Positions 21,342 through 30,408 of a DNA stretch of 31,079 nucleotides are shown here, piece after piece; the first letter of the stretch is position 1, and each line of letters opens with the position of its first letter. A program made the translations under genes and the position numbers. The notes under the pieces were generated by a model, which saw nothing but the letters and a program-made list of their open reading frames with translations, was not told the DNA's origin and ran no database searches. The stretch comes from Candidatus Bathyarchaeota archaeon (GTDB lineage: Archaea; Thermoproteota; Bathyarchaeia; 40CM-2-53-6): NCBI GenBank assembly GCA_005888755.1, contig VBBQ01000041.1, positions 1 through 31,079 on the forward strand, in the 5' to 3' direction.

Positions 21342-23663
21342 ATGTCAGAATCGGAAGACACTGACATTATTCCAGCGCCAAGCAGTATTGTGCGCGCACC
21401 TTCAGAAATCACTACAGTCGATTCAAGCCTAGCTAAGTCGGCCATCCCAAGCGCGGACAAACTTGCTAAGGTAACCTACTACAAGCTTGACCTGGACACT
21501 ATCCTGGATGGACTGATTCCTGATCCTCTTCCAGAGTCGAGTGGTAAGGACAATGCTATTCACCATTTGAACATCATAATCTTCGGAAAACCAAACACAG
21601 GGAAGTGCCTGACGGGTGATGATGTGGTGCCGACAACCACTGGTTCTATCGTGCGTGTCGGTAATCTTCACCCAGGACTCGAGGTGTTTTCAGTTGATGA
21701 GAACTTCAGGCTGGTCAAGGACAAAATAGTCGCTGTGGCATCCAACGGTGTAAGGGATGTTTTCAGAGTCAGACTCACAGATGGCCGTCAGATCAAGTTA
21801 ACCTCGAACCATCCGTTGCTGACGGCCTATGGCTGGAGGCAGTTGTCTGATCTTCACGAGGGTATGCCGGTTGCTGTTCCGAGATTTCTTCCAGTTCAGG
21901 GTAAGCACCTCAACCATGACGCTGCCAAGGTTCTAGGCTATCTCATCGCGGAGGCCGGTCTTACTGGCTACACTCCAAGGTTCACGAACGTGGATCAGAC
22001 GATTGTCGCTGACATGGGGAGGGCTTTGGCTCCGTTCGGCTTGCAACTGAGCGAGCCGTTCGAGCAAATCAACTATCGAGTGGTGCAGACTACGCCGGGC
22101 CAGCCGTTCAGAACAGATGATCCGCGTCATCAGTCGTATGGATACTACAAGCGATTCGCCGACGAGTTTGGTCTTCAGCGGGTTGACTCACGGGGAAAGA
22201 GAATCCCTCAATCAGTTTTGCGTGCAGACAACGAGTCTCTCGCAATCTTTCTGAGTGCTTTGTTCGCAGGAGACGGGTGGGTGGACGCAAGCGGTACCAT
22301 AGGCTATGGGACCATCTCTCCCGTTCTGGCGCATCAAGTTCAACACTGCCTTCTCAGATTCGGGATACTGAGCAGGCTTCGTAGGGGCGAGCGAGCTCTA
22401 GCATTAGACCGCAAGCACCGGACCGTCTCGTACGAGGTATGGGTCCCGTTAGAATATCGACAGAAATTCGAACAACACATCGCATTGCCTCAACGAAGGA
22501 TCTTGGACGGCGCGGACGCGGTGTTACGGCATGAGTCTCGGCAGGTCCGTAGATGGAGCCAGGATGACTTTCCGCTTCCAATCGCATATTTGAGATCAAG
22601 ACGCGATCGGCCCGGTGCCTGGTCTGGCGGAACATTTGCGAGTATGAAGGAAGCTCAGGAGTTCGCCAGGAAATACGAGCGTCCTTACGCCCTGAAAATC
22701 GCTGAGGGCGAATGTTTCTGGCCCCGAATCAAATCCATCGAATACATCGGCCCCGCTGAGACTCTTGATGTCCAAGTCGAAAAGACGGGAAACCTGGTCG
22801 TCAACGACATTTTTGTCCACAATACGACTCTGGCTGAGTCGCTTTCTCAAGCGTTAGCGCGTAGGTATGGTCAGGAGAATGTGAAGGCCCTTCGATCGAC
22901 TAGAGACCTTCCGGCATTGTTTGAGAACATGGACAATTTGTTCAAGCGGTTCCGTAAGCCTCCGAGGGCGGTGTTGTTGTTTGCGGACGATATGACGAAG
23001 GCGTTGAAGAAGCTCTCTGGGACTGTCGCTGTGAAAGACTCGAATGGACAGTTGCAGAAGATGAGGAAGATCGACTACTGGCTGGACAAATGGTACGATA
23101 TCAGGGGTGAGCTCTTCAAGCGCGGCATGCGACATGGTCTGGTAATAATGGTCGCCGCCCTCCACCGGTTCTATGGGGGAGATATCGACTTACGAGCTGA
23201 CGCAGACCTGCTGTTGGTCAGGAGCACGGGGACGCCTGGGACGTTTGATGCGAACAAGGTCGAGCGTATGCTTGGCCCAGTCGTCTACTACGCCATGCGC
23301 CAGCACGAAGTTGACGCTCTACGAGACAGGAAAGAACTCGCATGGACGGCATACGTAGCAAAAACAGGCTCAGGAGTCTTCCGCGTACCACGACCACCAG
23401 TCTCAAAGAAATGGATCATGCGAAACGTGGGACCTAGAGAGACGTCCGAGGAAACCGCTGTCGAACTGGTCGAGCCGATCAAGAAATCAGACCTAAACGG
23501 GCCTAGCAAAAAATCAGTAGCTGAAGAAAAACCAATAGTTCAGCTCAAACCACATCGAGGCAAATGGGGTCGGCGCTTTGTTATCGGCACTGGGGTCTTG
23601 GTGATACTTTACTTAGCTTGGGAGTACATTCTGCCCCTCCTCGCTCTTTGGGTCCATATCTAG
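21342..23663 (+). CDS. intein-containing, tail-anchored P-loop ATPase
   Basis: The 773-residue precursor is split by an intein at residues 89-494, leaving a 367-residue host protein. The host has a linker-like N-terminus, then NIIIFGKPNTGK joined after splicing to TTLAESLSQAL (Walker A). Walker B is at AVLLFADDM (precursor 543-551). The segment GLVIMVAALHRFYGGD may hold a sensor residue, and a charged C-terminal linker leads to one membrane helix (about 746-768) at the very end. It is probably a membrane-tethered NTPase with its catalytic domain in the cytoplasm. The outline recalls Zot-like or virus/plasmid DNA-packaging ATPases, but I cannot name the family. ATG 21342 is the only start after the upstream stop. 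Confidence 0.8.
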   Translation: MSESEDTDIIPAPSSIVRAPSEITTVDSSLAKSAIPSADKLAKVTYYKLDLDTILDGLIPDPLPESSGKDNAIHHLNIIIFGKPNTGKCLTGDDVVPTTTGSIVRVGNLHPGLEVFSVDENFRLVKDKIVAVASNGVRDVFRVRLTDGRQIKLTSNHPLLTAYGWRQLSDLHEGMPVAVPRFLPVQGKHLNHDAAKVLGYLIAEAGLTGYTPRFTNVDQTIVADMGRALAPFGLQLSEPFEQINYRVVQTTPGQPFRTDDPRHQSYGYYKRFADEFGLQRVDSRGKRIPQSVLRADNESLAIFLSALFAGDGWVDASGTIGYGTISPVLAHQVQHCLLRFGILSRLRRGERALALDRKHRTVSYEVWVPLEYRQKFEQHIALPQRRILDGADAVLRHESRQVRRWSQDDFPLPIAYLRSRRDRPGAWSGGTFASMKEAQEFARKYERPYALKIAEGECFWPRIKSIEYIGPAETLDVQVEKTGNLVVNDIFVHNTTLAESLSQALARRYGQENVKALRSTRDLPALFENMDNLFKRFRKPPRAVLLFADDMTKALKKLSGTVAVKDSNGQLQKMRKIDYWLDKWYDIRGELFKRGMRHGLVIMVAALHRFYGGDIDLRADADLLLVRSTGTPGTFDANKVERMLGPVVYYAMRQHEVDALRDRKELAWTAYVAKTGSGVFRVPRPPVSKKWIMRNVGPRETSEETAVELVEPIKKSDLNGPSKKSVAEEKPIVQLKPHRGKWGRRFVIGTGVLVILYLAWEYILPLLALWVHI
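21606..22823 (+). mobile_element. intein with LAGLIDADG homing endonuclease
   Basis: The 406-residue intein begins with Cys89 (CLTGDDVV, block A) and ends VHN (His493-Asn494), with Thr495 as the +1 extein residue. Block B is TSNHPLL (about 153-159) with the Thr and His needed for the N-S shift. Two LAGLIDADG helices are visible, LGYLIAEAG (about 197-205) and FLSALFAGDGW (about 302-312), with acidic residues Glu and Asp in the catalytic positions. The endonuclease may thus be active. The C-terminal block NLVVNDIFVHN is normal. Insertion lies between Lys and Thr of the Walker A motif, a well-known intein hotspot. Splicing is required to rebuild the nucleotide-binding loop. Confidence 0.92.
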
Positions 23664-25121: not shown

Positions 25122-27695
25122 CTAGGCTAGTTCTTGCAGTGTTATGGGTTCGATTTTTCGATAAATCTGGCGTGGGTCCAACGACCGTTCTTGGACGGTC
25201 AAGAGATCCTTCTTTACCGATATTCCGAACAGCTTCTCGTTTTCTTCTAGGAAGGGTCGAATCAGTTCCCAATCCTTCATTGTGAAGTCCGCGAGTCGTC
25301 CTCCGTTCAGCTGTTCGCTCGAAACCTTTCGGTATGGATCTCGGATGAATATCGCTCCGCCAGAGGCTAGAGAGAATAGGTTGCTTCCTGGATACGGGTA
25401 TTCGTGTTCCACGAATCGTCCGTCAAACGAGGGTCTCAGCCCGTTCACAACAACGAACCCGCCGCCATTGTAAGGATCTCCGGCCATGAATGATTCCGCA
25501 AGGTAGTCAAGGCATGTTCCGTTGATCACGACTCTTGGTCTGCCTACTGCGTTGATTAGTGGGCGCCCCGCCGCGTTGCCAAGAACGAAGACGTCGCCCC
25601 CCTTCGCCGCATACATGAATGCCTGGCCAACGTCACCGTGAACCACTAGTTTTCCATACTTGAGAATCTGCGCGGCCTGGTCCTGGGCAGCACCATGAAC
25701 CGTGATCTCACAACCATCAATACCAGACGCGACGTAATCTCCAACATCTCCGTAACAGTCGATCTTCAAATCGTTCGTTCGTGCGCCGAGCCCGCTCCCA
25801 ATGAATCGGTGGCCGCGTAGGTTGTAGAGTAGAATATTCTTCCAGCCTTCTCTATATGCATCGACTACGAACCTCGCAGTGCTTTCTTGTCCCTCAGCCG
25901 GAAACTCTAGAGCATCAACAACTAGCACCTGCTCGTCAAACCCTGGATGGATTAATCGAGATCGATTCTTCCAATCCAGCCGAGTGTACAAGTCGTAATT
26001 TGACAATGAAATAGAAGAGAAGACGTCGTTCAGTGCTTCGTGGTATAGTTGTAGTAGTGAGCTTCGTTTCTTTCTTCCAGTATCGTAGATTCTGTCGTAT
26101 AGTAGTGAGAGTGATTTTATCGCGAATTGTCGGGACTCTTGTCCCTTCATAGCCAGCCGTTTCAGTTCCTCCAGAATCTCTCCCACATACTGGAAGCCAG
26201 CATCCCTCAACGCGGGACGAACATACTCATAGAATCCCCACGGGTCCCGCGCACCGGGACCCCTCTGCAACTGTATCGCAATACTCGCGTTCAACGAGAC
26301 ACTAGAACCCACCTGAGGCAACCAGTCCTGCGCCGGAAGTTCTATCGATTTTCCAAACTTGTCAGCACACTCCAACACCTTCCCACTCTCCCCATCCTTC
26401 ACAGTAAAGAGAAACGCTCCACCATCTGTGAAGCTTCCACCCCTCGCATTCCAGTAAGTATCCGCAAATCTACTTGGTATTTTCTGATCTTCCTGCAACT
26501 TTCCTAGCACAGCATTGATCGCCTGTCTCTCTGAGGCGATAATCCCGATCTTGACCGGCCCTTCTTGAAGAGCAAACACCTGCGGCCTCAGCATCGACGT
26601 GTCCGTAATCCCTAGCAACTGCCAAGCGTTCTTCTCCACGTCATTCCTAGCGACAATGAAGAACCACGGACCGTCAGGGGACCCATGAATATGCGTCGAC
26701 TGTATCAGTCGATAGATCCTCTTCTTCTCCACCGACAACATCTCAAAATCTCTTTCAGTTGTCGGTGCCAGAGCTTCGATCAGATACTCCAGTGGGTATT
26801 TGTAGACGCGGCTGAGAAGGTCGAATAGTAACACAGAGACCTCCGTATCAGTCAAGAATAACGGGTGAATGTTTCGCTGGGCCAAGTACTCCATTATCGA
26901 ATGATAATTCGCAAAATCACCATTGTGCACCAACGCCTCATGCAAACCTACGAACGGATGCGCACCACCTGGATGCCAGACCCGTCCCTTCGTCGGATAC
27001 CGATGATGACCAATCCAAACATGCGCCTTGAAATCCTCTAACCGGTAATACCGTACAACGTCATCCCCAAAACCCACCAGCTTCAAAACAATCATGTTTT
27101 TCCCATGGCTGACGACGAAGGCCTTCTTCTCGCCCAGCGACGAGTAATACTGCTGATTCAGTCGGTAAGAGTTCTGGTAGAGAAATTCATCTTCTACTTC
27201 GTTTTCCTCGAGTCCTTCTAGACCGTTCTTACGAGCAAAATCAGCAAGAACGTCCCTCTTGACCCGGACAGAGTACCGATAAACCTCAGGTGGTTCGACC
27301 TCCAGACCTGGAATCGAACGATAATCATCAACAGCGTTCACCCTCGCCTCATAGTCGACCACAAAGAAAGGCCGGACATGTTCGTCTTCAACCTGTTTCC
27401 TGACCGATTTATTGAGATAGGCAACCTGTAGGATGTAATCCTCTTTCAGAATCTTCTCAGAGACCCCCAGCTGTTCGGGTACCAATCCGACAGCCGCAAT
27501 CCCTCCACCCTTCCCGTTTCCCCTGTTCCGCATCTGGACAAGAGACTGGAGCAGATATTTTCCTTCAAGTGGGACGTTGCATGCGAGACCGACGACTCCG
27601 CATCCTCCTTCTGCTTCTTGCTTACCCATTTCCACCTTGTCTACATGTAGAGATTTTCTCGAATCAATAATCGGTTGTCCAGACAATTCTCTCAC
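25122..27695 (-). CDS. glutamate synthase: fused glutaminase and GXGXG subunit
   Basis: The 857-residue protein joins domain 1 and domain 3 of glutamate synthase without the FMN domain between them. The N-terminal class II amidotransferase has nucleophile Cys32 (GGCGVVGLACN), a GHHRYPTKGRVWHPGGAHPF segment, HNGDFANY and a TDTEV motif. It releases ammonia from glutamine. Cys32 must become N-terminal by cleaving a propeptide of 31 residues, or nine if ATG 27629 is the start. A helical stretch (about 490-580) leads to the GXGXG beta-helix (about 620-760; GDVGDYVASGIDGCEITVHG and repeats). The GTG start overlaps the TGA of the preceding gltS-like gene as GTGA. It is the last gene of a three-gene operon. 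Confidence 0.9.
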   Translation of the reverse strand: MRELSGQPIIDSRKSLHVDKVEMGKQEAEGGCGVVGLACNVPLEGKYLLQSLVQMRNRGNGKGGGIAAVGLVPEQLGVSEKILKEDYILQVAYLNKSVRKQVEDEHVRPFFVVDYEARVNAVDDYRSIPGLEVEPPEVYRYSVRVKRDVLADFARKNGLEGLEENEVEDEFLYQNSYRLNQQYYSSLGEKKAFVVSHGKNMIVLKLVGFGDDVVRYYRLEDFKAHVWIGHHRYPTKGRVWHPGGAHPFVGLHEALVHNGDFANYHSIMEYLAQRNIHPLFLTDTEVSVLLFDLLSRVYKYPLEYLIEALAPTTERDFEMLSVEKKRIYRLIQSTHIHGSPDGPWFFIVARNDVEKNAWQLLGITDTSMLRPQVFALQEGPVKIGIIASERQAINAVLGKLQEDQKIPSRFADTYWNARGGSFTDGGAFLFTVKDGESGKVLECADKFGKSIELPAQDWLPQVGSSVSLNASIAIQLQRGPGARDPWGFYEYVRPALRDAGFQYVGEILEELKRLAMKGQESRQFAIKSLSLLYDRIYDTGRKKRSSLLQLYHEALNDVFSSISLSNYDLYTRLDWKNRSRLIHPGFDEQVLVVDALEFPAEGQESTARFVVDAYREGWKNILLYNLRGHRFIGSGLGARTNDLKIDCYGDVGDYVASGIDGCEITVHGAAQDQAAQILKYGKLVVHGDVGQAFMYAAKGGDVFVLGNAAGRPLINAVGRPRVVINGTCLDYLAESFMAGDPYNGGGFVVVNGLRPSFDGRFVEHEYPYPGSNLFSLASGGAIFIRDPYRKVSSEQLNGGRLADFTMKDWELIRPFLEENEKLFGISVKKDLLTVQERSLDPRQIYRKIEPITLQELA

Positions 27696-28972
27696 TTGTA
27701 CCTCACCAGCAGATCCCGTCTTCCCCGCAGATCGCGAACACTCTCCAGCCCGAACCCAGCAAGTATCGATCTCAACCGCTTCGACCAGGCAGTGAACAGA
27801 TTGACAATCCTAGTCTCGCCCCACTCAGGATCGATAAACCGTGATAATTCCGGATCCGTCGTAGTAATTCCGACCTGGCATCCACGTCCCCTCTCACAGT
27901 TCCCACAATGAGTACAACCAACAGCTACCGCCTCCGCGGTCGCAACCACACAACCATCAGCACCTAGCGCAATCGCTTTCGCGATATCATCGGCTGTCCT
28001 TATGCCACCGCTAGCTATCAAGACAACGTCGTCCCGGACCCCTTCCGATACTAGATAATCGTGGACCTTTGGGATCGCATACTCAATCGGCATTGCAATG
28101 TTCTTCTTCGCAATCTCCGGTGCCGCTCCCGTTCCCCCATAGCCACCGTCGATATGGATGATGTTGGCTCCAGCATAGTAGCTTCCAATCGCCACCATAT
28201 CCACATCCGTCGGCGTGGACACTTTCACCGAGACCAATGCACGTGGATTCACGGTCTTGATCCAGTCAACATGCTTCTTGTGATCCTCCACCGAATACAC
28301 ACTATGAAACGGAAAAGGCGAGTAAAGACTAGTAAACATCGAAGACTCCCGCATCTTGGCAACCTCCGACGTCACCTTATCGGCTAACAAATGCCCGCCG
28401 AGACCCGGCTTCGCGCCCTGCGCGTACTTGAACTCGACAATCGGCGCGTACTGTATCGTCTCCTCTCTGACCCCGAACATACCCGTCGCCACCTGCGTAA
28501 TCACATGATCCCGATACGGAACAATCTCGTCAGGATAACCACCCTCACCAGTAGACATGAAAGTGTCCAGCCTCTTCGCAGCCCTCGCCCGCGCAAGCAT
28601 GAAGTTGAGAGAGATCGAACCAAAAGACATACCACCACCATAGATCGGCAACGGAATCGTGATCTTCTTGCCATCTTCTCTCTTGTTCAACGGGATCGAA
28701 AGATCCACACTCTCCTGATCGATCCTCGCAAAGCCATTGTTCTTCCATCCCAGAACATCAAAACCACCCCCAGAATTCCCAGTCCTGTACTCTAGACCAT
28801 TTTTCGGCAGATCCCCCGTCAACGCCATCTCATAAGTCGCCAGTATCAGTTCCGCGGTCCAGCGCTTGTTCCCCAGCCCCTCCGGCAGACCATGACGGAG
28901 ACTAGGAAGGACCTCTATCCCGTGATGGATTCTTTCCGAGTGTTTTTCGACAATTAGTTCTAGGTTGCCCAT
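27692..28972 (-). CDS. gltB: glutamate synthase FMN/Fe-S (GltS domain) subunit
   Basis: This 426-residue protein is the alpha/beta-barrel synthase domain that converts 2-oxoglutarate and ammonia to glutamate on FMN. Family phrases include YGGGMSFGSIS, VEFKYAQGAKPGLGGHL, PFPFHSVYSVEDH, HIDGGYGGTGAAP and LIASGGIRTADDIAKAIALGAD. The Fe-S cluster loop CTHCGNC-ERGRG-C (Cys353, 356, 359, 365) is intact, so the canonical cluster can form. It works with the fused glutaminase/GXGXG protein encoded immediately downstream. Its ATG at 28972 lies 13 bases inside the end of the upstream paralogue. Bacterial GltB has these domains in one chain; archaea often split them. Confidence 0.93.
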   Translation of the reverse strand: MGNLELIVEKHSERIHHGIEVLPSLRHGLPEGLGNKRWTAELILATYEMALTGDLPKNGLEYRTGNSGGGFDVLGWKNNGFARIDQESVDLSIPLNKREDGKKITIPLPIYGGGMSFGSISLNFMLARARAAKRLDTFMSTGEGGYPDEIVPYRDHVITQVATGMFGVREETIQYAPIVEFKYAQGAKPGLGGHLLADKVTSEVAKMRESSMFTSLYSPFPFHSVYSVEDHKKHVDWIKTVNPRALVSVKVSTPTDVDMVAIGSYYAGANIIHIDGGYGGTGAAPEIAKKNIAMPIEYAIPKVHDYLVSEGVRDDVVLIASGGIRTADDIAKAIALGADGCVVATAEAVAVGCTHCGNCERGRGCQVGITTTDPELSRFIDPEWGETRIVNLFTAWSKRLRSILAGFGLESVRDLRGRRDLLVRYK

Positions 28973-30351
28973 GCTATCCCCTTGAACGACTGCTCCCGTA
29001 GCTCCGCGTCCATCATTGATCTTCCGATATCTCCGCGCAACCGTCTGACGTCCCGCATGCCCATAGCGCTGAGAATCTCGATCAATTGATCATGCCAAAC
29101 GCCGAAGAGGTTCACAAGGCGTTGCGCCCCCCACTCGGGATCGATTTTTCTCGGTTTCATCTGACAGTTTGCCCTGTCTCGGGTTTCCCCTCGGAATTCT
29201 GATTGCAAAGCCACCAGTATGGTTGTATCGATACCGACTAGATCCGCGCCACAGATGATCGCCTTCGGAACGTGCTCCGCAAGGGTTATTCCACCGCTCG
29301 CGATGATCGTGACTTGGTCCCGGAGACCTTCTTTCACCAGTTGCTGGTGGACTTCTTTCAGTGATGCTGAGATATGCTTCGGTTCCTTAGAGTAATCCTG
29401 ACCGTGATAGTCCCCGTACAAGTGCAATCCATGCACTCCCTGGCGTGTCAGTTTGCACGCAACCATTCCAGCGTCCTCCCGGAGGGGTACTCTTGCTATA
29501 ACTATCGAGGATGGAAGCGCGCCTGCCAGCTTCTCGAACAAATCCGACTTCTCAGCATCATACTCCACTATAGCCGAAGGCCTTTCTACTAGCTCCTGAA
29601 TGCTCTCCTCGTCACCAACTGGGATGAGACTCGCTGGGCCGAAATCGAAAGGTGTTCTCTGTCGAGAGACATAGAATGTCCCAAGCTTCTCTGCCGCAAT
29701 TCCAACAGCCGCTCGAACATCCCCACTTCCCGCAGGTAGCTTGTCGAAGATTATCGGGACAGGAATCGTTATTGTAGGAGAAGACCGGTCGATCTTGGAA
29801 AAGTCGACACTAGTCGGTTTTCTTCCAACATCAACACTGGTCGAGATGTACTCCCGCCCGTAAACACCATCCCTAGTAGGACGGACGATCTCTGACATGT
29901 CAGTCCAGATACCATCAAAGCCCTCCCCACCAAACGCGCCCTTGTACCCCATTCCCTTGACCGGGATCTTTCCGGTTGACGCCTCATTCCATATCGTGAA
30001 CACCGCCTCAGGGGTCCAGAACGAATCGCCCAGCCTCTTGTAACTGTCAGAATGTTTCACCGTCATAATGTGCGGATACTCCTGAACACACCTCATGCAC
30101 CCGACACACTTGTGCTTCAACGGCTTGAACCCGCCAAACCGTCCACCGAAAACCCCGTAGATGCAAGGTCGGCTGAGAACAACTTCCTTGTTGAGCTTGA
30201 ACTGGAAAGCCTCACGCACCAACATCGCAGCAAGCCGCACCTTACGCGCGCTCACGTCAAACTTGTTCGGAATCTGATAGACATGCGGAGTCGGTTTCGT
30301 CTCTATCCTGAAACGCTCGTACTTCGAGGGCTTCACGGTTTCTGGGTCCAA
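28960..30351 (-). CDS. divergent GltS-like paralogue with ferredoxin-like Cys motif
   Basis: The product (about 463 residues) is a second, divergent GltS-type FMN barrel: GGEGFDGIWTDMSEIVRPTR, TITIPVPIIFDKLP, then IIASGGITLAEHVPKAIICGADLVGIDT and a C-terminal DPEWGAQRLVNLFGVW shared with the canonical subunit. The canonical Cys-rich cluster loop is missing; a single Cys (ANCQM) remains. Instead, near residue 84 (numbered from TTG 30357) it has CVGCMRCVQEYP, a ferredoxin-type motif whose fourth Cys is Tyr; Cys65 (RPCIYG) might replace it. TTG 30351 is preferred since GTGAGG lies seven bases upstream; TTG 30357 is possible. It may receive electrons from ferredoxin or act as a structural partner, since no GltD is present. 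It is the first gene of the operon. Confidence 0.8.
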   Translation of the reverse strand: MDPETVKPSKYERFRIETKPTPHVYQIPNKFDVSARKVRLAAMLVREAFQFKLNKEVVLSRPCIYGVFGGRFGGFKPLKHKCVGCMRCVQEYPHIMTVKHSDSYKRLGDSFWTPEAVFTIWNEASTGKIPVKGMGYKGAFGGEGFDGIWTDMSEIVRPTRDGVYGREYISTSVDVGRKPTSVDFSKIDRSSPTITIPVPIIFDKLPAGSGDVRAAVGIAAEKLGTFYVSRQRTPFDFGPASLIPVGDEESIQELVERPSAIVEYDAEKSDLFEKLAGALPSSIVIARVPLREDAGMVACKLTRQGVHGLHLYGDYHGQDYSKEPKHISASLKEVHQQLVKEGLRDQVTIIASGGITLAEHVPKAIICGADLVGIDTTILVALQSEFRGETRDRANCQMKPRKIDPEWGAQRLVNLFGVWHDQLIEILSAMGMRDVRRLRGDIGRSMMDAELREQSFKGIAWAT

Positions 30352-30408
30352 TACCAAGCCTCACTTTAGCCCTCTACAAACGCACAGGAAGAGGCAAATC
30401 CACAGAAC

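Follow-up and report, generated by a model that had tools for sequence, protein, structure and literature searches.

Organization of a putative glutamate synthase cassette

The sequence studied here, hereafter the window, is a stretch of 31,079 nucleotides (positions 1 to 31,079 of contig VBBQ01000041.1, assembly GCA_005888755.1) from a Candidatus Bathyarchaeota archaeon of a soil Bathyarchaeia lineage, whose genome is 95% complete, and it carries three genes of a putative glutamate synthase (GltS) in which the catalytic barrel appears twice, once in decayed form (Table 1). The genes are labelled DIV (divergent GltS-like), CAN (canonical barrel) and GXG (glutaminase-GXGXG fusion). An earlier note made from the sequence alone had described them as overlapping, and the open reading frames (ORFs) were indeed found, with overlaps of 13 bp between DIV and CAN and 4 bp between CAN and GXG. 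Overlaps of this kind suggest translational coupling but, contrary to what that note had assumed, do not fix the stoichiometry of the products. GXG contains the GATase_6 and GXGXG domains with no flavin mononucleotide (FMN) domain between them, in agreement with the fusion proposed there. CAN is the sole strong and DIV the sole weak Glu_synthase barrel in this genome.

Table 1. Features of the cassette in the window (residue numbers refer to the respective protein)
Feature	Position	Strand	Description
DIV	28960..30357	-	Pseudo-FMN barrel subunit with N-terminal ferredoxin-like domain; 465 aa, TTG start
CAN	27692..28972	-	Catalytic FMN/2-oxoglutarate barrel; 426 aa, ATG start, short form without ferredoxin domain
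GXG	25122..27695	-	Class II glutaminase joined directly to GXGXG beta-helix; 857 aa, GTG start
DIV C65...C84-x2-C87-x2-C90	30088..30165	-	Predicted [4Fe-4S] ligand set (cluster II of 2[4Fe-4S] ferredoxin)
DIV residues 129-181 (GKIPVKG..DMSEIVRPTRDG.GREYISTSVDVGRKP)	29815..29973	-	Most conserved segment, likely partner interface
CAN Q185-GAKPG...R208	28349..28420	-	2-oxoglutarate/FMN loop, missing in DIV
CAN C353, C356, C359, C365	27878..27916	-	Cluster loop, four cysteines versus three in GltB
GXG Cys32	27600..27602	-	Predicted N-terminal glutaminase nucleophile once the propeptide is removed
GXG residues 633-793	25317..25799	-	GXGXG beta-helix region (PF01493)

Linkage, fusions and distribution of the cassette

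A scan of 84,980 species genomes recovered at least 540 loci with a gene for a DIV relative, and the neighbourhood counts given hereafter refer to the best 80 of them. CAN adjoined DIV in 77 of the 80 and all three genes were present in 68, most of the others being cut by contig ends; because the gene order was kept in those 68 loci and in related genomes, an assembly or annotation artefact was ruled out. The three loci without CAN comprised two contig ends and one real lone DIV (L108), and no GXG was found nearby at L112 and L102. The same order was seen in three evenly drawn samples, consisting of 151 Bathyarchaeia genomes, 201 genomes from the phylum of an Anaerolineales genome and 145 from the phylum of a marine Euryarchaeota genome, in which CAN was adjacent to every DIV with enough contig (14/14, 6/6 and 12/12, respectively). 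DIV-CAN fusions occur in four lineages: L095 belongs to Terriglobia and L102 to Latescibacterota, and the two phylum samples contributed one genome each (L179 and L180). The alignment used for the fusions combined them with DIV rows only. Apparent fusions at L067 and L088 were dropped as overlapping ORFs in different frames. The nearly constant position of DIV beside CAN and the fusions in four lineages support the heteromeric synthase core suggested by the earlier note, and our confidence that DIV belongs to a glutamate-synthase-type complex is high.

The Bathyarchaeia genomes found to encode DIV belong to the window's own family (f1) or, in a single case (G025), to a different family within its order; the other Bathyarchaeia genomes examined carried the standard separate glutamine amidotransferase (GATase), ferredoxin+FMN and GXGXG genes or gave no match. 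Errors in the binning of metagenome-assembled genomes could make the list of phyla too long. Two carriers, Calidithermus roseus and Thermalbibacter longus, are nevertheless named strains and not metagenome-assembled genomes, which makes the cassette testable. A search of plasmids for DIV returned weak partial matches only.

DIV as a decayed paralogue of CAN

Both barrel proteins belong to the Glu_synthase family (PF01645), as had been proposed, but to very different degrees: CAN matches it at 311.7 bits and GltS alpha chains in the PDB with an E-value of 3e-50, whereas DIV scores 43.9 bits over its C-terminal third only. The profiles of DIV and CAN matched each other with an E-value of 2e-48. 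In a tree of 57 rows, in which the other groups were standard archaeal-type proteins, GlxD and the GltB FMN domain, DIV and CAN each formed a clade with 100/100 support and were sisters with 98/94; the two subtrees largely mirrored one another, which argues that the pair has travelled as a unit. Compared with GltB, CAN keeps the active-site motifs GEGG and QGAKPG...R and the cysteine loop, as expected for the canonical GltS protein that the earlier note had recognised. In the Synechocystis and Azospirillum structures, the lysine and arginine of the QGAKPG...R loop bind 2-oxoglutarate. DIV lacks the block carrying this loop and the glutamate of GEGG, and thus is, by its sequence, a CAN paralogue without the active site.

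The monomer model of DIV is a full (alpha/beta)8 barrel (predicted local distance difference test (pLDDT) 81.7, predicted template modelling score (pTM) 0.84), and its best PDB matches are GltS FMN domains (Z 22-23 over 295-306 residues, root-mean-square deviation (rmsd) 3.4-3.9 A). Nearly half of the invariant columns among 25 diverse DIVs fall in residues 129-181, and the blocks at 131-170 are among those of lowest pLDDT. Since this segment is the most conserved yet is poorly ordered in the monomer model, it is likely to be a partner interface; we infer that it would fold against a partner, probably CAN.

Predicted iron-sulfur site of DIV and subtypes of the cassette

The earlier note had stated that DIV lacks the usual cluster loop, which is correct for the barrel, but it overlooked a ferredoxin-like CxxCxxC site of DIV itself. 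Among the 25 diverse DIVs, drawn from archaea and bacteria, C84, C87 and C90 are invariant and C65 is nearly so. Two main subtypes were distinguished. Subtype A is hosted by ANME-1, Methanocella, Syntrophorhabdaceae and others; its DIV carries two ferredoxin motifs and usually also a cysteine-rich barrel loop, and its CAN retains a ferredoxin domain at the N-terminus. Subtype B, which includes the window and is also found in Anaerolineales, marine group II/III, Thermus relatives, Parachlamydia and Acidobacteria, has a short CAN, and its DIV retains only the last of the four cysteines in motif 1 and the first to third in motif 2; this cysteine motif was present in every subtype B locus readable at that point. 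In terms of a 2[4Fe-4S] ferredoxin domain, both four-cysteine sets are present in subtype A DIV and one in subtype B. In two-cluster ferredoxins, the four cysteines retained here all bind the same cluster, and the second cluster is bound by the four that have disappeared. That one whole ligand set was lost and the other retained would be difficult to account for if subtype B DIV no longer bound a cluster. Thus, C65, C84, C87 and C90 are predicted to form one complete [4Fe-4S] ligand set, which gives the idea of electron entry through DIV a physical site. A third form (type C; L179 7255-10080 and L180 1128-3650) is a DIV-CAN fusion in which the DIV half has no ferredoxin cysteines and the CAN half has a three-cysteine loop as in GltB, so that the fusion resembles the central-FMN segment of GltB.

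The cluster loop of CAN has four cysteines, and the standard archaeal-type FMN proteins that were sampled (L046-L051) share this loop; the loop of GltB has three. Judging from these residues, CAN and the sampled archaeal-type proteins may bind a [4Fe-4S] instead of a [3Fe-4S] cluster. In GXG, the GXGXG domain (PF01493) scored 39 bits against a cut-off of 32.5 and GATase_6 scored 26.6 bits, slightly below its cut-off of 27. The motif E29-G-G-C32-G is near-invariant in 23 homologues and the leader before it varies in length, as expected if Cys32 is the nucleophile exposed by propeptide removal, a processing step that is presumed by analogy with known GltS and PurF enzymes.

Proposed mechanism and the electron donor

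We consider it fairly probable that DIV, CAN and GXG make up one heteromeric glutamate synthase, in which DIV is a non-catalytic, probably ferredoxin-fed subunit for electron entry and scaffolding. DIV would have arisen as a duplicate of the FMN barrel, lost the active site and specialised as a subunit without catalytic function. Ammonia would be released from glutamine at Cys32, in the glutaminase half of GXG, and would travel to the FMN site of CAN and add to 2-oxoglutarate, the resulting imine being reduced to glutamate. A soluble low-potential donor, probably ferredoxin, would reduce the ferredoxin-like domain of DIV, which would hand the electrons to the cluster loop and FMN of CAN, and the barrel of DIV would support the complex. 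Our confidence is moderate for the electron-entry role of DIV and low for the identity of the donor.

The absence of GltD from the window, reported by the earlier note, was found to extend further, because Fer4_20, the N-terminal domain of GltD, was detected neither in the window's genome nor in any genome of the same genus. Fer4_20 is present in most other genomes of the window's order and somewhere in 22 of 35 other DIV genomes, and a GltD-like ORF lies near one of the 80 cassettes (L105). Since the domain is missing from the genus and a GltD-like gene accompanies a single cassette, an external low-potential donor is the simplest inference, and ferredoxin is a plausible candidate on these genomic grounds.

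As for neighbouring genes, glutamine synthetase genes (glnA) were found in 10 of the 80 loci. The ANME-1 cassette of subtype A (L103 1242-6849) is preceded by the ammonium transporter gene amtB, glnA and a flavin adenine dinucleotide (FAD)/4Fe-4S oxidase gene, the subtype A cassette of Syntrophorhabdaceae (L121 5406-7002) by MetF and MetV-like genes, and the Latescibacterota fusion by an FlpD gene (L102 1229-1699). Taken together, glnA in these loci and AmtB beside the ANME-1 cassette point to ammonia assimilation. The FAD/4Fe-4S oxidase, MetF/MetV-like proteins and FlpD are possible electron partners replacing GltD.

Evidence against the proposed role and alternative explanations

Several observations weigh against a ferredoxin-fed glutamate synthase of this design. 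No glutamine synthetase (PF00120) was found in the 21 family f1 genomes, six of which are at least 92% complete, although it was present in all 17 other genomes of the same order that were searched. It was likewise not found in 17 of 34 other DIV genomes, 16 of these being subtype B and one of those lacking it being the chromosome-level Anaerolineales record CP075367.1 (G166), also subtype B; 10 of 11 subtype A genomes matched PF00120, one of them weakly. A missing glutamine synthetase is odd for an enzyme of the glutamine synthetase-glutamate synthase (GS-GOGAT) pathway. The glutaminase half is intact in family f1 and in the half of the other DIV hosts that lack PF00120, and the window's genome carries glutamate dehydrogenase-type genes. 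As a guess, hosts without glutamine synthetase may live on scavenged glutamine or peptides. A free-standing paralogue, which the earlier note had named as an objection, occurs once, at 342-1760 of a Methanophagales contig (L108) with neither CAN nor GXG, so the association is nearly but not strictly obligate. The DIV halves of L179 and L180 have lost the ferredoxin cysteines, which means that DIV must do more than carry electrons. Finally, a model of the fused protein, of moderate quality (pLDDT 74.8, pTM 0.53), could not be superposed on GltS as a rigid body (the rmsd over both domains was 12-13 A), so that the relative placement of DIV is tentative.

The strongest alternative, which we regard as unlikely, is that DIV is mainly structural, an unfused counterpart of the GltB central domain that holds the glutaminase and the FMN barrel in position and gives the ammonia tunnel its shape, the cluster being a stabilising remnant. 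The central domain of canonical GltS has itself been described as a duplicated, partly deleted FMN domain with lost beta/alpha units (PMC5011417), the DIV-CAN fusions run in the central-FMN order, two lineages retain DIV without its ferredoxin cysteines, and the L180 DIV half matches the central domain family (PF04898) above the cut-off, at 36.1 bits. The window's DIV scores 12.9 bits against PF04898. Against this alternative, the central domain profile matched DIV weakly (61.6%), with a better match (98.4%) to standard archaeal-type FMN proteins. In the tree, the sister of DIV is CAN, and its model matches the FMN domain and not the truncated central domain. Direct orthology with the central domain found no support in profiles, tree or model match, though the analogy stands; the four cysteines, kept across archaea and bacteria, also count against a mainly structural role.

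It is very unlikely that DIV, which keeps the phosphate-binding GG and GxD signature, is still a flavoenzyme with a second FMN that either acts on a substrate of its own or divides electrons between two routes. G355, G356, G370 and D372 are invariant and R289 is nearly invariant in DIV, and subtype A cassettes adjoin the electron-transfer genes listed above, but the GltS loop contacting flavin and 2-oxoglutarate has no counterpart in DIV, and no second-substrate signature was seen. It is most improbable that the cassette encodes an N-methylglutamate synthase or some other amine-transfer relative: such enzymes likewise have separate glutaminase, GXGXG and FMN subunits (L197), but GlxD, represented by one sequence with no verified MgsC, groups with L051 (100/99) outside DIV+CAN and has neither the cysteine loop nor DIV beside it, and the glnA and AmtB genes point elsewhere.

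The favoured reading of DIV as an electron-entry subunit can be carried further, to a third glutamate synthase architecture with a pseudo-barrel electron-entry subunit that arose by a duplication independent of that of the GltB central domain, the window's subtype commonly serving, where the host has no glutamine synthetase, to convert scavenged glutamine at the expense of ferredoxin and not as half of GS-GOGAT. We hold this extended proposal to be possible, though doubtful.

Comparison with known glutamate synthases

Glutamate synthase is at the core of ammonia assimilation. Because DIV scores weakly in family libraries, a three-subunit form carried by many uncultured archaea and bacteria alters the genome-based reading of their nitrogen metabolism. 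The archaeal-type enzyme, with separate GATase, ferredoxin+FMN and GXGXG genes, is used by relatives in the window's order; its parts are homologous to those of the cassette, and CAN shares its four-cysteine and GGHL substrate loops. In the cassette, by comparison, the FMN protein is duplicated with one copy dead, and GATase and GXGXG are fused; instead of a single FMN protein with an N-terminal ferredoxin domain there are two barrels, the ferredoxin-like domain sits on the non-catalytic DIV, and CAN of the window's subtype has lost its own. The bacterial NADPH-dependent enzyme (GltB and GltD, e.g. of Azospirillum brasilense) has the same catalytic barrel, glutaminase and beta-helix, and also a decayed second FMN-type barrel, its central domain; in the cassette the decayed barrel is a separate cysteine-bearing subunit, no GltD was found and the cluster loop has four cysteines and not three. 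With the ferredoxin-dependent enzyme of plants and cyanobacteria (1OFD), the cassette shares a predicted dependence on ferredoxin without an NAD(P)H subunit, but that enzyme is a single chain of about 1,500 residues whose only cluster is a [3Fe-4S], whereas the cassette has three subunits and an extra predicted [4Fe-4S] cluster. The single chains of GltB and the ferredoxin-dependent enzyme run in the order GATase-central-FMN-GXGXG, and the cassette differs in being divided among three genes. N-methylglutamate synthase and GlxBCD are three-part relatives of GltS as well, but have no DIV, no cluster loop and other neighbours.

The electron chain and ammonia tunnel of the canonical enzyme have been reviewed (PMC8097209). 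DIV looks like a repeat of the evolutionary move that gave the central domain, with the product remaining a separate subunit, and it may show, in living form, a duplicated catalytic barrel decaying into a helper, the step that has been inferred for the GltB central domain. No description of a two-barrel glutamate synthase was found in the open-access literature, most subscription journals being outside the coverage. The cassette with DIV is real and widespread, a variant of a known enzyme and apparently undescribed.

Elsewhere in the window, a 773-aa ORF on the forward strand (21342-23663) has, by eye, the look of a P-loop ATPase whose Walker A motif is split by an intein-like insert (GKPNTGK-CLTGD...VHN-TTLAE).

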